Part shown: piece after piece, positions 32,401 to 42,141 of the stretch
How the letters are laid out: each line of letters begins with the position of its first letter
How positions within the stretch are numbered: position 1 is the first letter of the stretch
The notes under the pieces: generated by a model
Told to the model about the DNA's origin: nothing
What the model saw: the letters and a program-made list of their open reading frames with translations, nothing else
Database searches by the model: none
From: Chloroflexota bacterium
GTDB lineage: Bacteria; Chloroflexota; Anaerolineae; Promineifilales; Promineifilaceae
Length of the DNA stretch: 46,242 bases
NCBI GenBank assembly: GCA_022616275.1
Contig: JAKEFB010000166.1
Location: forward strand, 1 to 46,242
Direction: 5' to 3'
Made by a program: the position numbers and the translations under genes

Positions 32401-32834
32401 TTGACGGCTGGCTGGGAGCCCGGGCCCGCGAGCACGGCCTGGCCGACCCGGCCCTGCTGGGCGATGCCGCCGCCGAGACCCGGCGGCTATTGCAGCGCTT
32501 CCACCAGCACCCGCTGCACCAGGAGATCGAAACGGCCGAACGGCGCTGGCACGAGTTGCCGTACTACCTGGAACACCAGGGGCAACTGGAGCAGGGAGTG
32601 ATTGACGTGCTGTTTGTGCGCGCCGGCCGCTGGACGGTGGTGGACTTCAAGAGCGACCACTTTCAGGACGCGGCTGGGCTGGAACGGCTGCTGGCGGCCA
32701 CCGATTACCTGGCCCAGGCCCGCCGCTACGCCGCCGCCGTCCGCCAACTGGCCGGCCAGCCGCCCACAATTTTGCTTTGCCTGTTGAATGGGCCGGATGG
32801 CGTCGTCGTCCGGCCGGTAGATGGACAAAATTAG
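29451..32834 (+). CDS. addA: AddA-like UvrD-family helicase-nuclease subunit
   Basis: 1127 residues from ATG 29451 (MIDNHPLVQQLTLSDPQW). All superfamily 1A helicase motifs are present: Q-motif-like start, Walker A GAGTGKT (33-39), motif Ia FTRKAAREMRNRV, Walker B VDEFQD (Asp396), motif III GDAKQSIYRFRGAD, motif IV NTSYRTH, motif V VHAAKGLEFPIVVI and motif VI LLYVAATRA. The C-terminal RecB-type nuclease has VGALVHEAL and VVDFKSDHF (Asp1065, Lys1067). Length and order match AddA. With AddB it should unwind and cut DNA ends for recombination. The gene follows addB by 34 bases on the same strand. The SWIM/VWA/MoxR genes begin about 100 bases downstream on the same strand with no obvious terminator between. 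Confidence 0.92.
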   Translation: MIDNHPLVQQLTLSDPQWAATAARGTDVVVTAGAGTGKTRTLVARYLSLVADRTPLRQIVAVTFTRKAAREMRNRVRATMQKYLDNPELEPAERAWWQQQTNSLDAARIGTIHNLCGEILRAHPAEARLDPQFGVLDEGQSTLLRREAVEAALAWAANNPAAVTLFALLPENSLRQTLDGLLQNRLVVQETGLARPEATTPAELLARWQAAVEKWQAGALAALLARPAWASSVAILRHNAAADPNDRIEQQRRLALAAVESAAKTESPEASRVSAALIPDLAALAGINLTGGSAKAWPDGAAQLAEVKEALKELRRLWQEQKLLQLRPNPADEALAAATPALYALFDAAQRIYQTAKEERYTLDFDDLEARAIELLYGHAAIRAYWQSAVQALLVDEFQDINGRQLALFRLLCPDPGKLFIVGDAKQSIYRFRGADVAVFRREQAQVAAAGGAILSLNTSYRTHKALVTGMNGLLRPILGEPQPAAPPWVAPFDEPLVHYHDHPMAGLEAPYIELHLTVGSKREGALERAAQALVARLWELADRSALQGGTISPGDVAILCRSTSSFAAYEDALDQAGIPFLTVAGKGFYDRPEIRDLLNALQAIADPADDLALAGLLRSPACGLSDAALYRLSLARPAGASLWQTLPGEVAWEDAAEAACARRTVELIRTLNQQAGRAGVADVLKAFLDATHYRAALRHAGLNRAARNVDKLLADAHTSGLVSVGEFLEYVAGLRGAGSREGEARATADGAVQIMSVHAAKGLEFPIVVIGDANSFRNRGGEVLIDPDLGVLLPRKEGDDRAAAYQLARQLEDGKEAAELNRLLYVAATRAGQKLLINGCISLADSGRPGRLTGWLRQIAGVIGLDQCDLGHYDEAGDRPLLFDLRLGETEVALTVYEPRYPALPAARSLRPAPEPTGDFIPPPLLAPLPGQAASSPAPAERPQRVWQVVPAAGRPEAPAPAWVVGALVHEALALWRFPGPGFDGWLGARAREHGLADPALLGDAAAETRRLLQRFHQHPLHQEIETAERRWHELPYYLEHQGQLEQGVIDVLFVRAGRWTVVDFKSDHFQDAAGLERLLAATDYLAQARRYAAAVRQLAGQPPTILLCLLNGPDGVVVRPVDGQN

Positions 32835-32935
32835 AACAAATGTGCTATCATTGTAACTACTCAATCTCTCTTGCTGTGGCCGGTTTTATGACCCTGCCAC
32901 CTCTCGACGCAATCACAAAGTGAGGTTTTTTCACC

Positions 32936-33457
32936 TTGTCATCCCTCCCCAAGCAACCCTCGGTTGCCGTCTCCTTGTCAGGCATGGGCTCATCCTCCCT
33001 GAATAAACAACCCAAACCGGCCGCCGCCGGCAAACGTGATCTGCGCAAAGTGCCGTTCGTCGAGTTATTTAACGGCCGGCTGCAAGGCGTCGTCTCCAGC
33101 GGCTCAGACCTGGAACGGGTCTACGTCTCCTTTTTTGAGGCTGGCTCGTTTGATTACTATTGCAGCACCAACAACAACCGGCCGTGCGGCGGGCTGCGCG
33201 GCTCCCCCTGCAAGCATTTGCAGGCCCTGCTGCACGAAGCCGTCGCCCAGTACGGCGTGGAGCAGGTGGCCCGCTTCCTGCAGCTCCCCGGCGACCTGAG
33301 CCAGGTCAAAAGTGAGAAAGAAATCTGGCCGCGCCTGCGCGGCTCGTTAACCAAAGACCCGGCCGGCGAGGTCTTCAGCCGCTTTTTGAACTACCTGCGT
33401 TACCTGGAACTGGAGGGAAGCGACCGGCCGGTGGTGGAGATGGGGTGGTTTGGGTGA
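32936..33457 (+). CDS. SWIM-like zinc-finger protein
   Basis: 173 residues if started at TTG 32936, which has GAGGT nine bases upstream; ATG 32984 (MGSSSLNKQPKPAAAGK) is a credible alternative giving 157 residues. Residues ~60-105 carry YYCSTNNNRPCGGLRGSPCK followed by HLQALL, a Cys-x7-Cys-x7-Cys-x-His arrangement related to SWIM zinc fingers (Cys-x-Cys-xn-Cys-x-His). The rest is helical and unassigned. SWIM domains bind nucleic acids or proteins. It is the first gene of a run that continues with an unknown protein, VWA, MoxR and a DUF5682-like protein. Genes of these kinds are known to travel together in other bacteria, which supports the call. Confidence 0.7.
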   Translation: MSSLPKQPSVAVSLSGMGSSSLNKQPKPAAAGKRDLRKVPFVELFNGRLQGVVSSGSDLERVYVSFFEAGSFDYYCSTNNNRPCGGLRGSPCKHLQALLHEAVAQYGVEQVARFLQLPGDLSQVKSEKEIWPRLRGSLTKDPAGEVFSRFLNYLRYLELEGSDRPVVEMGWFG

Positions 33458-33460
33458 AGG

Positions 33461-33530
33461 AGATTGGAGATTGGAGATTGGAGATTGGTTATTGGATAGG
33501 GAATAAGCAATAACTAATAACTGATACTGA
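33461..33530. repeat. GGAGATTGGAGATTGG / TTATTGG low-complexity repeat
   Basis: Four AGATTGG units (33461-33488) run into TTATTGGATAGGGAATAAGC and AATAACTAATAACTG. This fills the 80-base gap between the SWIM-like gene and the next gene and is kin to the repeats at 5927-5972 and 22565-22618. Confidence 0.65.
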
Positions 33531-33539
33531 GGCGGTGGT

Positions 33540-34937
33540 GTGGAGTTTTTAGTGGGTTTGCAGCAAGCCCCGGCCGGGGTGGGGGAGACGGCCGAAGTTA
33601 TTGCCGGCTTTGACCAATGCTTTGTCGCCGGTTTTGCCAGCCTGGACGGCCGGCAACACCAGGCCCTGGCCGCCCTGGCCCGCGCTTTGGCCGGGACCCC
33701 GCTGGCCGGGCCGCTGGCCGAGAGTCTCCAGGCGTTCGGCCGCAACGAGTTCCTGGACCACCATTTTGCCGCCCTGGCCAGGGCCAGGGCCGCCTTGCAG
33801 GGAGCCCAGTTTGACGCCTTACAGCAGCAGGTCTGGGCGGCTTTAGGACGCCGGCCGCTGGCGGAGGTGCCCCCAGCCAGTGAGGCGGCCGAACTGCCAG
33901 ACCACGCCCTGACCTGGCTGGCCAGCGCCCGCCGCTGGCTGGTCGAGCTGGTCCTGGCCGGTTTTGCCCGGCTGGAGGCCAGAAGCCTGACGCCGTTCAT
34001 GGCCACGCTGGCCCAAATGCAGGGCGAGAGCCAACTGGTCCGGCCGGCGGCATTGCTGACCGGCTTTTTCGACGAATTGATGAGGGCCGTGCCGGTTGCC
34101 GACCCGGCCGGCATTCCCCTTTACCGCTGGGTGGACCTGTGGAGCCGGGCGATGGTCACTACCTTTCCTCTCCCCCAGCCGGGGCCGGTTGAGCTGGTCT
34201 CCAGCGACCTCTATTTATTGGGCCTCGACGTTCGCCAGCACGACCATTTTATTAGCCTGGTGGCTTATGGGCTGTTGGCAGGAGAGAAAGGGGCGCGGGC
34301 CGGCCGGCTCACCCTCTCGGCCTACAAGGTGGACGCGGTCCAGAATGAGGAGGTCTGGCTGCTCTTCCCCCGGGCAGCGCTGCTGTTTGACGCCCTGGCC
34401 CAACGGCGCGTCCTCCGCTTGAGCCAGGTCCCGTGCTGGCCGGCCGGCGATCTGCGCTGGGACGGCGAGAGAACGGCCGGCGGCCATTACGACCCGATGA
34501 GCGTCGCCGCGCGCTGGTTTTCCCCCGGGGCGGCGGAAACGGCCGCCCCTCTCCAACTGCCGCCGGCCGACCGCCACCCGCTGCAACTGGCCGAGCCGGT
34601 GTTCCTGGAGGGGTATGCGGCCGGCGGCCAGGGTGGTGAATGGGTCCTGGACTGGGGCGGCGGCCGGGCGCTGCCGGTGGCCATGGACCGGGTCAGCCCG
34701 CTCACCGGCCTGACCAAAGAGGCGGTGGCCCATTCGACGCGGCTTTTTGGCCTGCTGCGCTTTGACGCCGGCCGGTGGTCGGTGCAGCCCCTGGCCCTCA
34801 CCAGCCAGCAGGGCGAGGGCCGGCCGAGAACGCTCGTAGCCGGGGAAGAGGCGGCCGCCGTCCTGCGCCAATCGCCTAAAAACAGCGCCGTGGCCACCCT
34901 CCAGGAGCGGGCCGGCCGGTTGCTGCGGGCTGGGTGA
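33540..34937 (+). CDS. Unrecognised 465-residue protein in the MoxR/VWA operon
   Basis: 465 residues from GTG 33540, with GAGGCGG upstream. No domain is recognised. The N-terminal ~230 residues are helical and Ala/Leu-rich (EVIAGFDQCFVAGFASLDGR, HALTWLASARRWLVELVLAG, LTPFMATLAQMQGE). From ~230 on, beta-type sequence dominates: LVSSDLYLLGLDVRQHDHF, EVWLLFPRAALLFDALAQRR, GGEWVLDWGGGRALPVAMD and FGLLRFDAGRWSVQPLALTS. There are no catalytic signatures, signal peptide or membrane helices. It lies between the SWIM-like and VWA genes, 13 bases before the latter, so a co-expressed partner or substrate adaptor of the MoxR-VWA machine is the likeliest role. It may correspond to one of the uncharacterised families known from such operons (for example DUF5691), but this was not confirmed. 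Confidence 0.75.
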   Translation: MEFLVGLQQAPAGVGETAEVIAGFDQCFVAGFASLDGRQHQALAALARALAGTPLAGPLAESLQAFGRNEFLDHHFAALARARAALQGAQFDALQQQVWAALGRRPLAEVPPASEAAELPDHALTWLASARRWLVELVLAGFARLEARSLTPFMATLAQMQGESQLVRPAALLTGFFDELMRAVPVADPAGIPLYRWVDLWSRAMVTTFPLPQPGPVELVSSDLYLLGLDVRQHDHFISLVAYGLLAGEKGARAGRLTLSAYKVDAVQNEEVWLLFPRAALLFDALAQRRVLRLSQVPCWPAGDLRWDGERTAGGHYDPMSVAARWFSPGAAETAAPLQLPPADRHPLQLAEPVFLEGYAAGGQGGEWVLDWGGGRALPVAMDRVSPLTGLTKEAVAHSTRLFGLLRFDAGRWSVQPLALTSQQGEGRPRTLVAGEEAAAVLRQSPKNSAVATLQERAGRLLRAG

Positions 34938-34950
34938 TGGAGGAGTAGGC

Positions 34951-36360
34951 GTGGAGTTTAATGATGTTGCTCAGCGGCGGCAGGTTGTTTATTGGCGCTT
35001 GCTGGCGGCCGTTTTTGGCTTTGGCGAGCAGGCTGCCAACTTTGAAGAGATGGCCCTGGAACTGGTCCACGAGCTGGAACTGCCGGAGCTGCTGCTGCAC
35101 CCCACGATTGCCGTTGATACACTGCTAGAGCGCTATCCGGAGCTGGAGCCTGACTTTCGCCAGGTGGCGCCCGGCGCGGCGGCCGGTCAACCGGTGGAGG
35201 GGGAGGGCGAGCCGGCCGGCCCTGGCCCGGACAGCCTGCGGCGCGGCCTGGTCTATTCCAAGCTGCTGCTCAACGTGCTCGGCCCCAACACGCAGACCTC
35301 TGTCGTGACCGCCCAACAGTATAGCCAGTGGTTGAAAGACGTGGCCCATCTGGAGCGGGCTTGTGGCCTGGCGCCTGGCGGGCTGCGCGGGCAGGAGGGC
35401 GGCGATCGAGGGTCGCTGGGAGCGGGGGAGCAGGGGAGTGGTGGAGGGATTTTTGTTGCGGAAGAGCAGTTGCGGGCGGCGCTGGCTTCGATGGAAGGCG
35501 ACCTGATCCAACGGATGGCCCTCCGCGAAGTGCTACAGAACAATCAACTGGCCGCCCAGCTCACGCCGTCCATGCCTCTGGTGGAGCAGTTGTTGCGCGA
35601 CAAGGCCAACCTGTCCGGGACCGCCCTGGCCAACGCCAAGCGCCTCATCCGCCAGTACGTGGACGAGTTGACCGAGGTCCTCAAGCTCCAGGTGCAGCAG
35701 ACGCCGGCCGGCAAAATTGATTACACCGTTCCGCCCAAGCGGGTCTTTCGCAACCTGGACCTGAAACGGACCATCTGGAAGAACCTGACTAACTGGGACG
35801 CCGGGCAGCAACGGCTGTACGTGGACCGCCTCTACTACCACCACACGGCCCGCAAGAAGACGCCGGCGCGTCTGATTGTCGTCGTGGACCAGTCCGGCTC
35901 AATGGTGGACGCCATGGTCCAGTGTACCATCCTGGCCTCTATTTTTGCCGCCGTGCCCCACGTGGACGTGTACCTGCTGGCCTTTGACACCCGGGTGCTG
36001 GATTTGACCCCCTGGGTCCACGACCCGTTTGAGGTATTGCTGCGCACCCAACTGGGCGGCGGCACCAACATTACCCAGGCCCTGGTCGAGGCGTCGCAAC
36101 GCATCCAGGAGCCGCGCCAGACGGCCGTGGTGCTGATCACCGACTTTTACGAAGGAGGCAGTCAGCAGGTGCTCTTTGACACCATCAAGTCGTTGAAAAA
36201 TTCGGGCGTCCACTTCTTCCCGGTCGGGGCGATGAACAGCACCGGCTACTTCAGCGTCAACGAGTGGTTCCGCACCCGGCTAAAAGAGTTGGGCACGCCC
36301 ATCCTGGCCGGCAGCCCGAAGAAGTTGATTGAGCAGTTGAAGAAGGTGGTCGTTATGTAG
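34951..36360 (+). CDS. VWA-domain protein, CoxE-like
   Basis: 469 residues from GTG 34951, with GGAGGAG upstream. The N-terminal ~270 residues are helical and unassigned. The VWA domain spans ~305-465 with an intact metal-ion-dependent adhesion site: VVVDQSGSM (Asp313, Ser315, Ser317), GGGTN (Thr372) and LITDFYEG (Asp398). CoxE-like VWA proteins work as substrate adaptors for MoxR AAA+ ATPases, and a moxR-type gene follows directly. A Gly-rich linker at ~152-166 (SLGAGEQGSGGG) is encoded by a low-complexity GGGGAGCAGGGGAG repeat. No signal peptide, so cytoplasmic. Confidence 0.85.
   Translation: MEFNDVAQRRQVVYWRLLAAVFGFGEQAANFEEMALELVHELELPELLLHPTIAVDTLLERYPELEPDFRQVAPGAAAGQPVEGEGEPAGPGPDSLRRGLVYSKLLLNVLGPNTQTSVVTAQQYSQWLKDVAHLERACGLAPGGLRGQEGGDRGSLGAGEQGSGGGIFVAEEQLRAALASMEGDLIQRMALREVLQNNQLAAQLTPSMPLVEQLLRDKANLSGTALANAKRLIRQYVDELTEVLKLQVQQTPAGKIDYTVPPKRVFRNLDLKRTIWKNLTNWDAGQQRLYVDRLYYHHTARKKTPARLIVVVDQSGSMVDAMVQCTILASIFAAVPHVDVYLLAFDTRVLDLTPWVHDPFEVLLRTQLGGGTNITQALVEASQRIQEPRQTAVVLITDFYEGGSQQVLFDTIKSLKNSGVHFFPVGAMNSTGYFSVNEWFRTRLKELGTPILAGSPKKLIEQLKKVVVM
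35407..35448. repeat. GGGGAGCAGGGGAG low-complexity repeat inside the VWA gene
   Basis: GAGGGTCGCTGGGAGCGGGG followed by GAGCAGGGGAGTGGTGGAGG. It is read in frame as a Gly/Ser/Ala linker between the helical N-terminal part and the rest of the VWA protein. Confidence 0.6.
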
Positions 36361-36370
36361 CTGGGGTGGG

Positions 36371-36410
36371 TTTGCAAGTTTGCAAGTATGCGAATTTGCC
36401 AGTCTGCGAG
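36371..36410. repeat. TTTGCAAG / TCTGCGAG low-complexity repeat
   Basis: TTTGCAAGTTTGCAAGTATG and CGAATTTGCCAGTCTGCGAG lie between the VWA and MoxR genes, resembling the CTCGCA repeats found inside addB and the DUF5682-like gene (read on the opposite strand). Confidence 0.6.
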
Positions 36411-36426
36411 AATGAAGGAGGTAGTT

Positions 36427-37566
36427 GTGACGGATACGAAGACAAATTCGGATGAGACGATTCTCCGCCAGCCGGCCGAAATTAAGTTTCGGGAGGAGTT
36501 GGCTTACCTGGCCTCGGTGGATAATGGGCCGCGGCCGTTTGCCTGGCAGCTTTCGCCGCGCATGGTGCGCACCTTTGTCCTGGGCAGCACGCCGTCCGGC
36601 AAGCTCGACCGGCCGGTCGCCCAGAAGTGGTACGGCGATCCGGCCATCGCCGAACAGGCCATCGTCACCCTGGCCTCGGACCGGGGCCTGCTGCTAATCG
36701 GCGACCCGGGCACGGGTAAAAGCTGGCTGGCGGAATTGCTGGCCGCGGCCGTCTGCGGCAACTCGACCTACGTCGTCCAGGGCACGGCCGGGACGACGGA
36801 AGACCAGATCAAATACTCCTGGAACGTGGCCATGGTCATTGCCGGCGGGCAGTCGCGCCAGTCGCTCATCCCATCGCCGATTATGACGGCCATGCAGGGA
36901 GGGGCGCTCGGCCGCTTTGAGGAACTGACCCGCTGTACTTCCGACGTGCAGGACGCGCTCATTTCCATTCTCAGCGAGAAGTACATTGCCATCCCGGAAC
37001 TGAAAACGGACAACCTCGTCTTTGCCCGGCCGGGCTTTAACATTATCGGTACAGCTAACAGCCGTGATCGGGGGGTGAACGAGCTGTCGGCCGCCCTCAA
37101 GCGCCGCTTCAACTTCGTCCACATCCCGGTGGTGACCAATAAGCAGATGGAGCGGGAGATTATCCTCTTCCGCACCCAGGACCTGCTGGCCCGCCACGGC
37201 TTTGCTATTGACGTGCCGCCGACGCTGCTAGACATCCTGCTGCAAACCTTTGCCGACCTGCGCGAGGCCAGCGGCGCCGCCACGGCCGAAGACCAGCGGC
37301 TAGAATCGGCCCTGTCTACGGCCGAGCAGATCGGCGTCCTGGAAGACGCCATTCTGCACAGCCATTACTTTGGCGCGGCCCATTTGCAACCCGATATTCT
37401 CGGCCGCTCGCTGGTCGGCACGCTCGTCCGCCGCCTGCCGGACGACGTATCCATTCTCAACAAGTTCTGGCACGGCGTGGTGGAAAAGCGGAGCGAGAAA
37501 GAGAAAGGCGAGTGGCGGCCGTTCGCCGAGGGTGGCAAGGCGGCCATGGGGATTATGAAGCGGTAG
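36427..37566 (+). CDS. MoxR-family AAA+ ATPase
   Basis: 379 residues from GTG 36427, chosen because AAGGAGGT (36415-36422) sits just before it; the longer frame from ATG 36388 starts inside a repeat. Walker A is GDPGTGKS (92-99), the Walker B-like segment is GALGRFEELTRCTSDVQ, sensor 1 is IIGTANSRDRGVNE and the arginine-finger region is LSAALKRRFNFVHIP. MoxR ATPases form hexamers that remodel client proteins, usually presented by a VWA partner such as the one just upstream. The final ~150 residues are the C-terminal lid and helical domain. It is followed by a broken P450 gene. Confidence 0.9.
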   Translation: MTDTKTNSDETILRQPAEIKFREELAYLASVDNGPRPFAWQLSPRMVRTFVLGSTPSGKLDRPVAQKWYGDPAIAEQAIVTLASDRGLLLIGDPGTGKSWLAELLAAAVCGNSTYVVQGTAGTTEDQIKYSWNVAMVIAGGQSRQSLIPSPIMTAMQGGALGRFEELTRCTSDVQDALISILSEKYIAIPELKTDNLVFARPGFNIIGTANSRDRGVNELSAALKRRFNFVHIPVVTNKQMEREIILFRTQDLLARHGFAIDVPPTLLDILLQTFADLREASGAATAEDQRLESALSTAEQIGVLEDAILHSHYFGAAHLQPDILGRSLVGTLVRRLPDDVSILNKFWHGVVEKRSEKEKGEWRPFAEGGKAAMGIMKR

Positions 37567-37623
37567 GGTCTCTGACACCAATTGCACAGACGGCACGAAA
37601 AATTAGTGGAATTCGTGTAATTC

Positions 37624-38358
37624 GTGGCTAAAAAGAAAAGGGTAATGGCTGTTCAACTTCCTGGCCCCACCGGCCTGGCGAACCTCACTTACGGGCGGCT
37701 TTTTCTGACCCGGCCGTATGCGGCCATTGCCGCCCTGTACGCCGCCTACGGTCCCGTGTTTGTTTACGGGCAGGGACCGTTTCGCTATTTCTACTTAATT
37801 GGCCCGGAGGCCAACCACTACCTGCTGGCCAGCAATCCCGGCAACTTCCGCTGGCGGGAGGCCTTCGAAGTGCTGGCCCCGATTGACGGCGAAACGGCGC
37901 TCATCCTCAGCGACGGGGAAGACCACAAACGCCGCCGGGCCAGCCCCGACGAAGCCGACGACGTGATGGCCTTGCTGGTGGCCACTAAAGACGAAACAGG
38001 GGACTTTCTGTCCAATTTAGAGGTGCGCGACCAGGTGGTCAGCCTGATTGCCGCCGGCTTTGACACCACCAGCGCGGCCATGGGCTGGGCGGTGTACGCC
38101 ATGCTGAAAGAGCCGGCCATCTGGGAACGGGCGCGGGCCGAGGTGGAGCAGGTCACCGGCCGCGGCCCCCTGGCCGTGGAACACCTGGGGCAATTGCCGT
38201 ACCTGGACTGGGTGATTTCGGAAACGTTGCGGCTCTACTCGCCGGCCGTGATTGGCGTCCGCAAAGCGGCAGCAGCCTTTGAGTTTGGCGGCTATACCAT
38301 TCCGGCCGGCAGCATGGTCATCTATTCGCAATACATTACCCAGTGGATGGATGAGTAG
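37624..38358 (+). pseudogene. Cytochrome P450 remnant lacking the haem-ligand region
   Basis: A 244-codon open frame that spells parts of a P450. The N-terminal part (YGPVFVYGQGPFRYFYLIGP, then ILSDGEDHKRRR) includes the helix C His-x3-Arg-like region. The text then jumps to SPDEADDVMALLVATKDETG, so about 100 or more residues (helices D-G) are missing. The I-helix AAGFDTTSA and K-helix SETLRLYSP (Glu-x-x-Arg) are kept. The frame then stops at QYITQWMDE, before the FxxGxxxCxG haem-binding loop, so it cannot bind haem. GTG 37624 opens the frame; ATG 37645 is an alternative. The 3' end overlaps the start of the DUF5682-like gene by eight bases. It looks like a gene that landed in the operon and was whittled down without breaking the frame. 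Confidence 0.8.
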
Positions 38359-41119
38359 TTTGAGTAACCTGGATGTCCTCCAGGACCAACTGCTGGCAGC
38401 GGCCGAGGCTTTTGCCGGTGAGGCCCAACCGTTGGGCGAGTTGCTGGCAGCGATGGCTGGCGACGTGGAGCGGGCCACGGCCGAGCCTTTGGAAATCTTC
38501 CCTGTCTGCCACCACTCGCCGGCCTCGGCCCTGCACATGGTCCGGCGGCTGCGCGACCGGCCGCCCCAGGTCATTTACCTGGAGATGTGTGAAGATTTGC
38601 TGGCCGCCGTCCCCTACCTGGCCGATTGCAAGCTGCCGGTTGCCCTGCAAGCTTTTGCCGCCGAAACGGAGGCCTTTCCGGCCGGCTGGTCGCCGTTGAG
38701 CGTCGTCGCCCCGCTGACCGAAGCTTCGGCCGAATACCAGGCCATGACCTACGCCTTGCAGCGGCCGGAGACGGAGTTGGTTTTCGTGGACCGGGCGGTG
38801 GACTTCGTCTTCCAGTGGCTGCCTTTGGAGGAGAGGCTACCAGAGCGCCTGTCCGAAGAAGAGGAACCACCGTCGGAAGAAGCCCAGATGCATGGCACGG
38901 CCGTTGGGGTAGAGTTGGGGGCGCTGGAGCCGACGTTTGATCGCTTCCTGGCTTTTCTGCTGCGCAACGCCAACGTCCGCCACTTTGCCGAGTGGTGGGA
39001 CCAGTACGTGGAGCAAGCCATCATTGGCGCGGATTACGCCACCTACCGCCAGGTGATGTTCCTGGTCGGCAGCCTGCTGCGCCGGTTAGGCCGCCGCGAC
39101 GAAGACCTGGCGGTGGACCGCCAGCGGGAGCAGTATATGTGGACGCGCCTCAAGGAACACCTGGCCGGCAGCGGCCTGGACCCGGCCGACGCCCTCTACA
39201 TCTGTGGCGCGGCCCATTCGGCCAGCGACGTGGCCGAGTTTGGCCTGGGGAGCGACGTGTTGTGGCCGATTCCTCAGCGGACCAGCACCCACTGGCTCTA
39301 CGGCCTGCTGCCATCCAGCTTTGCCGCTATTGAGTACCAGTTCAGCCACCCCGCCGGCACGGTGTCCCTGGCCGAAGCAACCTGGCAAAAGAGCCTGCGG
39401 GCCATCAACGTCCGGCCGTTCCGGCTGGAAAAGCCCGGCCGGGCAGGAGGTAAGGATGCGAGTGGGCGAGTAGGCGCGTTTGCAGATGAGCAAGTTACTC
39501 GCAAACTCGCAGCCTCGCAAGCTCGCAAACTCAGTCCTCAGTCCTCGGCCCTCAGTCCTCCATCTGACGCCCTGCTCCACTTCCTGACCCGCTCCCCCGC
39601 CCTGGCCGAGGCCGACCAGGAACAACTGCTGCGCTGGTGCATCGAGATCGTCGCCCTGGCCCGCAAAAACGGCTACCTGGCCTCGACCGCCGATTCGATT
39701 GCCATCTACCAGACCGCGCTCCTGCTGGCCAACCTGCGCAACCGCAGCCACCCGTCGCCTTACGATTTCCAGGACGCGGCCGTCACCTGCCTGGAGAAAG
39801 AGCGCATGCCGAAGAAGCGCAACGTCCGCCAGTTGTGCCACATTTTGCTCGGCGGTGACCGGATCGGCAGCGTCGGTTACACCTCGCTGCCGCCGCTGGC
39901 CCAGAACGTCTACGACCGGCTGGCCCCGTTGAACGTTAACCTGACGGCCAGGACCAACCAGCGGGCGCTGATGGACTTCAAGCGCCGGCCGGAGCTGTTG
40001 CCCTGTTCGGCCGTGCTCTGGCGGTTGAACTATCTATTGGGCGACCAGACGGTCCAGCCGATCATGGGCGAGCGGTCGCTGGGCCACCAGCCGATCCAGG
40101 AGTCGTGGGAGATTCGCATCGGCAAGTACCAGGGGCCGTTGATCCAACTGGCTTACGAAGGGGTAACGATTGAGCAGGTGCTGGAACAGCGGCTGAAGAA
40201 AGCCGCCTTCAGTGACGAGGCGCGGGCCAACCAGGTCCTGGTGGCGGCCGAAGCCAGCCTGCTTTACCTGACCAGCCTCCGCCTGACCCGCGAACTGGGG
40301 GAGCGGGCCGTCTACTTGCTGCGCCAGGAGACCAGCGCCGAGGACGCCCCGGCGATTTTCGACCGGGTGCGCCGTCTGGTTCACTACTACCGGGCGACGC
40401 CGGCCGGGCTGCCGGAGTGGATTGAGGCCTTTGTCACCACCGGCTATTCCCACTACGCCACGCTGCTGCCCCGGGCTTTTGCCGACCGGGGCACGTCGCC
40501 AGAGCAAATCGCCGGCATGTTAGGCTTTATCTTCACCCTGGAAAGCCTGGCCCTGTCGTTGGGCTGCAGCCGCAGCGAGTTGCTCATTGCTGTCGGCCAG
40601 GCCGGCCAGGTGGAGGCCGACCCGGCCAAGATGGGCCTGTTGTGGACGGCCGAGTGGCTGTTGAAGCTGCGCCCTCTGGAGGAGATACGAGCCTTTTTTG
40701 ACCACGTGCTGGCCAACCCGTTGCTGGCCCCGGCCTTCCCCGACTACCTCAACGGCTTTATCCTGGCACTGGGTTTTGCCCCGCAAATGGCCGCCTTCCT
40801 GGTCGAACTGCTGAGCAAGGTCTTTGCCGCCGTGCCGGACCAGGTCTTGCTGCCCTGGCTGCCGAACCTGATTTTGCGCCTGCGGCCGCACAGCCTCGTC
40901 CTGCAAGCCCTGATGAAGGAGGCGGCCACAACCTTCCCCAACACGCTGGCCGGATTCGAGCAGTGGCAGCCCCCCTGGACCAGGACCCAGCCGGCCGGAG
41001 AGGAAACCCTGCCAGGCGGTGAGCTGAGTGACACCGAGGCCGCCGTCCAGGCGCTGCTGCAAAGCCAGCCGGCCGCCCTCCAGGCGTTGGCGTGGCTGCT
41101 GAATCACGCTGGAAGTTAA
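38351..41119 (+). CDS. DUF5682-like protein of the MoxR/VWA/SWIM operon
   Basis: 922 residues from ATG 38351 (MSSLSNLDVLQDQLL), overlapping the end of the P450 remnant by eight bases; an in-frame ATG at 38252 lies inside the P450 sequence and is disfavoured. The N-terminal ~370 residues resemble the DUF5682/ChaN-EreA-like alpha/beta type: EIFPVCHHSPASALHMVRRL, PPQVIYLEMCEDLL, TELVFVDRAVDFVFQ and ADALYICGAAHSASDVAEFG, with conserved His, Glu and Asp that could form an active site. The rest is largely helical (VAAEASLLYLTSLRLTRELG, DPAKMGLLWTAEWLLKLRPL). A repeat element at residues ~368-404 is read in frame as a linker. Families of this kind occur beside MoxR, VWA and SWIM genes elsewhere. The enzymatic role, if any, is unknown. 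Confidence 0.78.
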   Translation: MSSLSNLDVLQDQLLAAAEAFAGEAQPLGELLAAMAGDVERATAEPLEIFPVCHHSPASALHMVRRLRDRPPQVIYLEMCEDLLAAVPYLADCKLPVALQAFAAETEAFPAGWSPLSVVAPLTEASAEYQAMTYALQRPETELVFVDRAVDFVFQWLPLEERLPERLSEEEEPPSEEAQMHGTAVGVELGALEPTFDRFLAFLLRNANVRHFAEWWDQYVEQAIIGADYATYRQVMFLVGSLLRRLGRRDEDLAVDRQREQYMWTRLKEHLAGSGLDPADALYICGAAHSASDVAEFGLGSDVLWPIPQRTSTHWLYGLLPSSFAAIEYQFSHPAGTVSLAEATWQKSLRAINVRPFRLEKPGRAGGKDASGRVGAFADEQVTRKLAASQARKLSPQSSALSPPSDALLHFLTRSPALAEADQEQLLRWCIEIVALARKNGYLASTADSIAIYQTALLLANLRNRSHPSPYDFQDAAVTCLEKERMPKKRNVRQLCHILLGGDRIGSVGYTSLPPLAQNVYDRLAPLNVNLTARTNQRALMDFKRRPELLPCSAVLWRLNYLLGDQTVQPIMGERSLGHQPIQESWEIRIGKYQGPLIQLAYEGVTIEQVLEQRLKKAAFSDEARANQVLVAAEASLLYLTSLRLTRELGERAVYLLRQETSAEDAPAIFDRVRRLVHYYRATPAGLPEWIEAFVTTGYSHYATLLPRAFADRGTSPEQIAGMLGFIFTLESLALSLGCSRSELLIAVGQAGQVEADPAKMGLLWTAEWLLKLRPLEEIRAFFDHVLANPLLAPAFPDYLNGFILALGFAPQMAAFLVELLSKVFAAVPDQVLLPWLPNLILRLRPHSLVLQALMKEAATTFPNTLAGFEQWQPPWTRTQPAGEETLPGGELSDTEAAVQALLQSQPAALQALAWLLNHAGS
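39454..39562. repeat. CTCGCAAACTCGCA repeat inside the DUF5682-like gene
   Basis: ATGCGAGTGGGCGAGTAGGC on the left and ACTCGCAAACTCGCAGCCTC, then AGTCCTCAGTCCTC on the right. It matches the addB element at 28309-28413. The right half is read in the same frame in both genes (TRKLA in each), the left half in different frames (MRVGEW against DASGRVG). Confidence 0.8.
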
Positions 41120-41156: not shown

Positions 41157-42059
41157 TTAGTTCATTTCAACAGAGATGCCCACGTGTTGCAAAACGGTCA
41201 TGGGGCCGTGTTCTTTGAGGAGTTGCAGCTTCTCCTCGGTGCTGACGAAGAAGGAGCCAGCGTAGGCCAGGGCGTTGATAGAGATTTTCTCGAATTTTTC
41301 GCGGGAGCGAGGGACGAGCCACATGAGCTGCCGCGTCAGCAGCAGGTTGTAGGGGCCTGGCTGGCGGCCGGCGTCGCCGGGCGGTAGGCCCACGGCCCGC
41401 AGCAGCAGGTCGTAGCGTTCGAGCGTGGCCTGGGCCGCTTGCTGCGGATCGGCCGTCCAGGCCGGGTCCAGCCGGGCGACGGCGTGGCGGAAGGGGAAGG
41501 CGGGTGTAGTTCCCACCAGGCCGTCAAAGCGGCTGGCGGCCAGCGCCGGCGCCACCGGCAGCGGCGGCCCTTCCTGGGCCAGAGGGAGAGGGACGAGCTG
41601 GAGGTGCTTATGGGCCTGGCTGGCCCCGGCCGTTCGGCCGCCGTTGTAGAAGGCCAGGCCATCGTACCCGGCCAGGCAGGTCCACAACGCCCTGAAGTCT
41701 GCCAGGGTCAGCAGCGACTCCTGCTCCTCAAAGGCGCGGCTGACGATGAGCAGGTGGTGGCCAATGACGTTGTACTTGTTCAGGAGGCAGACGTGGCTGT
41801 CCGCAATAGGGCCGATAAACAGCGCTTCCTCGTAAGGGGGCAGGAAGGGGTCGGCCTTGCCGCCGGCCGGGGCGGCTTCTTTTTGTTCCTGGGTGGCCCT
41901 GGCCCGGCGGGCCAGGTTGGCCGATACCCGGACCAGGAAGCGAATGCCACCCTGCTCAATAATCTCTCCCGTCGTGGCGATGGGCCGCAGCGCGCCGCTC
42001 CGCAGGGCGCGCCTGGTCTGTTCCTGGACTCGCGCCCACAGCGCCCTGGGTTCTAGCAT
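41157..42059 (-). CDS. Ap4A phosphorylase / ATP adenylyltransferase-like HIT-superfamily protein
   Basis: 301 residues. ATG 42059 (MLEPRALWARVQEQTRRAL) follows AGGAGGT at eight bases; the longer frame to 42206 crosses a palindrome and is rejected. SQAHKHLQLVPLP gives the His-x-His-x-Gln catalytic motif (His150, His152) of Ap4A phosphorylases, a branch of the HIT superfamily. HVCLLNKYNVIGHHLLIVSR and TYNLLLTRQLMWLVP-like sequence (GPYNLLLTRQLMWLVPRSRE) also fit that family. The expected reaction is phosphorolysis of diadenosine tetraphosphate to ADP and ATP, clearing a stress-linked nucleotide. It faces the MoxR operon tail-to-tail. Confidence 0.88.
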   Translation of the reverse strand: MLEPRALWARVQEQTRRALRSGALRPIATTGEIIEQGGIRFLVRVSANLARRARATQEQKEAAPAGGKADPFLPPYEEALFIGPIADSHVCLLNKYNVIGHHLLIVSRAFEEQESLLTLADFRALWTCLAGYDGLAFYNGGRTAGASQAHKHLQLVPLPLAQEGPPLPVAPALAASRFDGLVGTTPAFPFRHAVARLDPAWTADPQQAAQATLERYDLLLRAVGLPPGDAGRQPGPYNLLLTRQLMWLVPRSREKFEKISINALAYAGSFFVSTEEKLQLLKEHGPMTVLQHVGISVEMN

Positions 42060-42103: not shown

Positions 42104-42141
42104 TCAGGTGACTGTCACTTGCGCAAGTGACAGTCACCTGA
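42104..42141. repeat. AGGTGACTGTCACTT palindrome, perfect copy
   Basis: TCAGGTGACTGTCACTT (42104-42120), GCGC, AAGTGACAGTCACCTGA (42125-42141): a 38-bp perfect palindrome in the 5' flank of the Ap4A gene. An imperfect copy lies at 23813-23846, upstream of the universal stress gene. Confidence 0.85.

Follow-up and report, generated by a model that had tools for sequence, protein, structure and literature searches.

The stretch of DNA analysed here, the window, comprises 46,242 nt of contig JAKEFB010000166.1 (assembly GCA_022616275.1) from a Chloroflexota bacterium of the Promineifilaceae, and lies on contig C70 of a genome of 8.5 Mb. Directly downstream of addBA it carries genes for a SWIM-like zinc protein, a protein of an unnamed family (here called U465), a VWA protein, a MoxR AAA+ ATPase and a DUF5682 protein (Table 1). 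A preliminary description of the locus proposed that these five same-strand genes, perhaps with addBA, work together. The five are near certain to form a single unit, and they appear to encode one machine made up of a motor and its partner, two likely nucleic-acid binders and a probable hydrolase.

Most of the earlier reading of the genes was borne out, including their common strand. Tight spacing holds for the first four, whose intergenic gaps are 82, 13 and 27 nt; MoxR and DUF5682 are separated by 784 nt, a gap occupied by a cytochrome P450 fragment that had been overlooked. The five proteins were compared with the Pfam, NCBIfam and PADLOC 2.0.0 libraries at a cut-off of E ≤ 0.001. U465 and the SWIM-like protein matched no family in any of them, in keeping with the account of U465 as lacking a recognised domain, and the 922-residue protein was indeed assigned to DUF5682. 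PADLOC returned a single weak row, mad8 on MoxR (E 2.1e-4), no match for the other four proteins, and no system corresponding to the five. Sequence searches of the PDB gave no convincing match for DUF5682, U465, the SWIM-like protein or VWA; with MoxR they gave midasin and McrB-like chains.

The residues expected of a zinc protein, a metal-binding VWA domain and an ATPase are strongly conserved. The SWIM-like protein has four zinc ligands (C76, C84, C92 and H94) in 70 of 70 aligned rows, spaced C-x7-C-x7-C-x-H rather than in the classic CxC...CxH pattern, and none of 24 members matched Pfam SWIM at E ≤ 1. The metal ion-dependent adhesion site of the VWA protein is complete, as had been stated, with D313, S315, S317 and D398 in 72 of 72 rows and T372 in 58 (N in 14); the domain match covers residues 263-461 of 469, and a ViaA model matched weakly (E 3.5e-4). 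For MoxR, the claim of complete Walker motifs stands for the Walker A lysine (76/76 rows), whereas Walker B reads E-E (RFEELTR), not D-E, in all 76. MoxR also gave a sub-threshold nSTAND3 row in Pfam, and in a MoxR tree the outgroup branches were too long to be useful.

Table 1. Features at and around the five-gene locus, in window coordinates (aa, amino acids; ORF, open reading frame; AF2, AlphaFold2).
Feature	Position	Strand	Remarks
SWIM-like zinc protein	32936..33457	+	ORF from TTG; likelier start ATG 32984, 157 aa
U465, unnamed family, 465 aa	33540..34937	+	Helical N-terminal half, OB-fold-like C-terminal half (AF2 model)
U465 residues 214-433	34179..34838	+	Predicted beta domain(s) like tandem OB folds of single-stranded DNA-binding proteins
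VWA (CoxE-like), 469 aa, YehP relative	34951..36360	+	PF05762 VWA_CoxE, E 5.2e-36
MoxR AAA+ ATPase, YehL relative	36388..37566	+	Alternative start 36412; PF07728 AAA_5, E 2.6e-37
DUF5682, 922 aa, YehM relative	38351..41119	+	PF18934, E 3.5e-28
DUF5682 residues 46-294	38486..39232	+	TraB/PrgY/GumN (TIKI-superfamily)-like domain; hhalign
DUF5682 residues 612-815	40184..40795	+	Helical solenoid (HEAT/karyopherin-like arrangement)
Truncated cytochrome P450	37624..38358	+	Interloper outside the module; PF00067, E 1.6e-33
Sigma70-like site	32822..32851	+	TGGACA-18-TATCAT; end of addA, upstream of the SWIM gene

Conservation of the operon

Nine aligned DUF5682 proteins served as the query for collecting loci, one genome per species being scanned. 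At least 566 relatives were found, and the results below rest on the best 80 of them, the remaining 486 or more lying outside the count; operon genes were called by tblastn with four seeds per family, and flanks were covered to at most 10 kb. The preliminary description had named a lack of neighbourhood in related genomes as one observation that would refute it. The five genes proved to be adjacent, on one strand and in the order SWIM-U465-VWA-MoxR-DUF5682, in 69 of the 80 loci. Nine further loci (L036, L043, L055, L060, L061, L062, L064, L066 and L102) are incomplete and begin at a contig end. DUF5682 stands alone with room around it in only two, Oscillatoria sp. SIO1A7 (L045) and Desulfococcaceae HSG8 (L046); in both genomes U465 lies on another contig, and in the Oscillatoria genome SWIM sits beside the displaced U465 and VWA is also present elsewhere, while VWA was not found in the HSG8 genome. 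Over the 70 complete operons, window included, the median gaps are -1, -4, 13 and -4 nt, overlaps of start and stop codons between neighbours are usual, and DUF5682 is always the last gene.

Extra genes occur inside nine of these 70 operons. Seven are cyanobacterial (L037, L038, L039, L042, L044, L048 and L049) and hold Uma2-like (PF05685) genes between VWA and MoxR or between MoxR and DUF5682; three of these were confirmed by Pfam, and one family of them lies on the strand opposite to the operon. The eighth case is a second SWIM gene, in Mastigocoleus testarum, where two tandem SWIM-like genes head the operon (L058:4345-5380). The ninth is the window, whose P450 fragment is absent from the other 69 complete operons. 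The fragment is in frame and its stop codon overlaps the DUF5682 start. Its match to PF00067 spans positions 233-368 of 462 in the profile, the C-terminal end is missing, and the remnant has an internal deletion as judged by eye.

No relative of addA or addB was detected in the covered flanks of any of the 80 loci (E ≤ 1e-5), nor in seven Chloroflexota operons (E ≤ 1e-4). That addBA lies upstream on the same strand is correct, but its proposed functional link to the module was rejected: because addAB relatives are absent from the covered flanks of all 80 loci, addBA is regarded as a chance neighbour, with only a very slim prospect that the module is a DNA-repair unit acting with AddAB. That the five genes themselves are unrelated and grouped by chance, for which only the P450 interruption peculiar to the window could be cited, is refuted by the same order recurring in 69 of 80 loci across distant phyla. 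No conserved flank neighbour was found, the largest flank cluster occurring in 13 of 81 loci. Near or next to the operon in genomes of the Herpetosiphon type an ADP-ribosylglycohydrolase (PF03747) gene was seen (L029:13217-14143 and L030:10732-11646).

Relationship to E. coli yehLMPQ

In E. coli K-12, yehL (MoxR), yehM (DUF5682), yehP (VWA) and yehQ (SWIM) are consecutive genes. The module as it occurs in the window (window-type) was compared with families of the yehLMPQ kind (yeh-type). In hhalign, MoxR (100%, E 8e-89, 44% identity), VWA (100%, E 2e-50) and DUF5682 (99.7%, E 3e-27) each matched their yeh-type counterpart, these E-values being those of single comparisons. MoxR alone is 39% identical to YehL over 357 residues (E 1.4e-82), against 27% over 45 residues for RavA (E 1.1). 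Because of these profile comparisons the module is identified, at the level of sequence, as a sister lineage of yehL-yehM-yehP-yehQ with a subunit of its own, U465.

Both lineages have homologous MoxR, VWA and DUF5682 and a SWIM or SWIM-like protein; they differ in gene order, in SWIM protein size and in U465. The yeh-type order is MoxR-DUF5682-VWA-SWIM in E. coli and SWIM-DUF5691-MoxR-DUF5682-VWA in a Chloroflexota genome (L116). Yeh-type SWIM proteins have 442 and 614 residues, compared with about 150 for the window-type, and the latter resembles the yeh-type SWIM domain weakly (hhalign 26%, E 7e-4). The long yeh-type SWIM protein occurs in 19 of 201 Chloroflexota genomes, and the genome of the window is without it. 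U465 has no profile similarity in hhalign to either DUF5691 or the long SWIM protein. Kinship with DUF5691 was rejected (0.1%). U465 and the long SWIM protein look colinear by eye, but the idea that the former split off from the latter found no support, its hhalign values of 0.2-1.1% being equalled or exceeded by column shuffles.

Predicted domains of DUF5682 and U465

DUF5682 proteins, YehM included, very probably begin with a domain of the TraB/PrgY/GumN family (TIKI superfamily). The comparison set comprised 26 TraB rows from the phylum of the Thorarchaeota locus, in which 34 of 119 genomes have a match; 30 loci were gathered, L147-L173 without L167 (read in a wrong frame) were used and the partial L174-L176 were left out. 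Against these rows, yeh-type DUF5682 scored 95.2% in hhalign (E 2.6e-8), E. coli YehM alone 91.4% (E 9e-7) and the window-type and yeh-type families combined 88.8% (E 2.5e-6). The match of the window-type family alone was weak (19.1%); alignment of the second His was obtained with the combined profile only. Four leave-one-out runs gave 93.8-96.0%, and omission of E. coli 82.0%; nine control comparisons stayed at or below 0.5% (E ≥ 0.11), and in 40 column shuffles per query E never fell below 0.014. H54, E78, D147, R148, R259, G286 and H289 are invariant in all 44 DUF5682 rows, and the TraB/PrgY/GumN motifs H..E..DxP/DR..R(D/E)xY..GxxH are colinear with DUF5682.

DUF5682 differs from TraB/PrgY/GumN in its long helical-repeat C-terminal half, and the likeness lies below Pfam detection, a direct Pfam search finding no TraB domain in DUF5682. 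The TraB family itself was found in none of 61 Chloroflexota genomes. In the AF2 model (predicted local distance difference test, pLDDT, 86.7) strands and helices alternate in residues 48-147 and 281-321. A structure search did not list TIKI structures; its lists were filled by the helical half, so that the TIKI-like part was barely tested. Since the predicted domain belongs to the TIKI superfamily, DUF5682, the largest of the subunits, is probably a hydrolase, either a peptidase or an esterase, built on a helical-repeat scaffold.

The AF2 model of U465 is of high confidence (pLDDT 94.8, predicted template modelling score 0.92), and its C-terminal half probably adopts an OB fold. In Foldseek the first three rows were LEF-3, followed by RPA, CST and SSB, and 10 of the first 14 rows were single-stranded DNA-binding proteins; the VIA rows include HIN-200, RPA, CST and SOSS1, and all these scores are weak. 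No sequence similarity to such proteins was found, and they differ from U465 also in that the latter has an additional helical N-terminal half. The modelled likeness suggests that U465 is an OB protein of the single-stranded DNA-binding type, forming with the SWIM-like protein a nucleic-acid-binding pair.

Distribution

By record title, the 80 loci comprise 46 from Actinomycetota, 14 from Cyanobacteria, 10 from Chloroflexota, five from Myxococcota and one each from Desulfococcaceae, a proteobacterium, Verrucomicrobia, Spirochaetales and Thorarchaeota. The complete order occurs in Chloroflexota, Cyanobacteria, Actinomycetota, Myxococcota, Verrucomicrobia, Spirochaetales and the one Thorarchaeota metagenome-assembled genome (MAG). 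This last (L073) and the Spirochaetales genome (L093) are MAGs that share the isolate prefix 'Zod' and pair in the DUF5682 tree; the archaeal label may be a binning error. The tree, made by a quick method, groups mostly by phylum, and transfer between phyla is therefore not shown.

The module is rare and patchy. Counting in each phylum the genome taken as centre, U465 was found in 8 of 400 Chloroflexota genomes (strong matches), 2 of 292 Cyanobacteria and 5 of 296 Actinomycetota; weak matches in two Chloroflexota genomes (G436 and G460), with no other module genes nearby, were excluded. Among 99 related genomes only that of the window and G041 have U465, and contig C27 of G041 is the nearest relative carrying the same genes. 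U465 also matched five plasmid records. All five genes are present on two Streptomyces plasmids (0.93 and 0.97 Mb). The annotations there give the first two as hypothetical, the next two as VWA and AAA family ATPase and, on one plasmid, the last as DUF5682; on Streptomyces fungicidicus plasmid p1 (L178:4235-13842) the module has an N-6 DNA methylase gene alongside it and a type IV secretion DNA-binding gene close by. One viral-labelled contig holds SWIM, U465 and VWA up to its end. A MoxR gene 42% identical to that of the window was seen in a record from human faeces labelled Bacteriophage sp. (MT835988.1:12861-13919), which is possibly bacterial DNA.

Other features of the window

Between addA and the SWIM gene there are 101-149 nt. 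The sigma70-like site at the end of addA is possibly the SWIM gene's own promoter; it is the only such site in 9 kb, where 0.9 would be expected by chance. Further downstream, a perfect 38-nt palindrome (42104-42141; two 19-nt arms, no spacer) lies just upstream of an Ap4A phosphorylase gene on the minus strand, with a likely start at 42059.

Discussion

MoxR ATPases usually cooperate with a VWA protein in acting on dedicated targets (PMC3893208, PMC11432383), a pairing that the preliminary description had rightly called known, and NorQ brings about metal insertion by remodelling NorD, its VWA partner (PMC13036017). In the mechanism proposed here, the SWIM/OB pair would recognise nucleic acid, either RNA or single-stranded DNA, such as might appear under stress or when foreign elements invade; the MoxR ring, acting through its VWA partner, would spend ATP to remodel or release DUF5682, as NorQ does with NorD; and the remodelled DUF5682 would be switched on to hydrolyse a protein or other target. 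For this scheme as a whole, a MoxR-VWA machine controlling a TIKI-like hydrolase with SWIM/OB subunits as nucleic-acid sensor, we consider the odds about even (roughly 0.5). A more specific version is offered tentatively, ranking between the two leading alternatives considered next: an AAA+-gated protease system, mainly of multicellular bacteria, in which SWIM/OB would sense foreign or damaged single-stranded nucleic acid, MoxR-VWA would fire and the DUF5682 TIKI peptidase would cleave its target, with yehLMPQ as a divergent branch of the same kind.

The best placed of the alternatives, though still doubtful, is a metallo-cofactor or assembly chaperone, in which MoxR-VWA would mature DUF5682 by metal insertion or assembly, as NorQD does for NO reductase, DUF5682 would be a metabolic or housekeeping enzyme, and SWIM and U465 would be assembly subunits rather than sensors. 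MoxR-VWA pairs do remodel and metal-load client enzymes (PMC13036017, PMC3893208, PMC11432383), a representative TIKI protease is metal-dependent, though some members are not (PMC6254334), and DUF5682 is coupled to MoxR as the invariable last gene of complete operons. An OB-fold and zinc-protein pair is left unexplained by such a role, however, and the rarity and patchiness of the module, evident from the U465 counts in the three phyla, are unlike those of a housekeeping enzyme. NorQ-NorD and RavA-ViaA likewise combine MoxR with a VWA partner, but the module has no respiratory client nearby and its MoxR is not RavA-like.

An anti-phage or conflict system, a role raised in the preliminary description as conflict with foreign DNA and one which overlaps with the sensor-hydrolase scheme, is rated unlikely and below both of the foregoing. 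Its logic would be related to that of the MoxR-vWA ternary conflict systems (VMAP, iSTAND and FtsH types; PMC7159879), in which MoxR and vWA occur with further conserved partners, as here. Patchy distribution, the presence of the whole module on two large plasmids of Streptomyces, in one case adjoining a methylase gene, and a predicted nucleic-acid binder together with a predicted hydrolase are all consistent with it. So is the largely filamentous or mycelial habit of the hosts, an impression without a background control, since the ternary systems occur in bacteria of that kind (PMC7159879). Against it, no PADLOC system was matched, the flanks hold no recurrent defence genes (the cluster in 13 of 81 loci being the largest, with no background comparison), and the variable effector found C-terminal to vWA in ternary systems is missing after the VWA domain of the module. 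The partners of MoxR and VWA in the module are DUF5682, U465 and SWIM, and Pfam families of the ternary systems, in a library that includes a VMAP model, matched none of the five proteins at E ≤ 0.001, the sub-threshold nSTAND3 row on MoxR apart.

In the available parts of PMC3893208 and PMC11432383, YehL appears only as the name of a MoxR subfamily. DUF5682 and DUF5691 are not mentioned in the 5.39 million PMC papers searched, subscription literature being mostly outside that search, and for the yeh names together with SWIM one genome announcement was found. The sequence comparisons add a second form to the YehL-type MoxR-VWA module, introduce U465 as a new family of subunit and propose an enzyme class for DUF5682. 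In public records this module, conserved across phyla, goes under the labels 'hypothetical, hypothetical, VWA, AAA ATPase, DUF5682', and the libraries scanned contain no model for either U465 or the SWIM-like protein. If U465 is a single-stranded DNA-binding OB protein, it would point to the trigger of the system. E. coli holds a divergent, functionally unexplained version of the module, and if DUF5682 and YehM are TIKI-like hydrolases, the function of the yeh cluster could be tested directly in E. coli K-12, by mutation of the catalytic residues and by assays for that class of activity.

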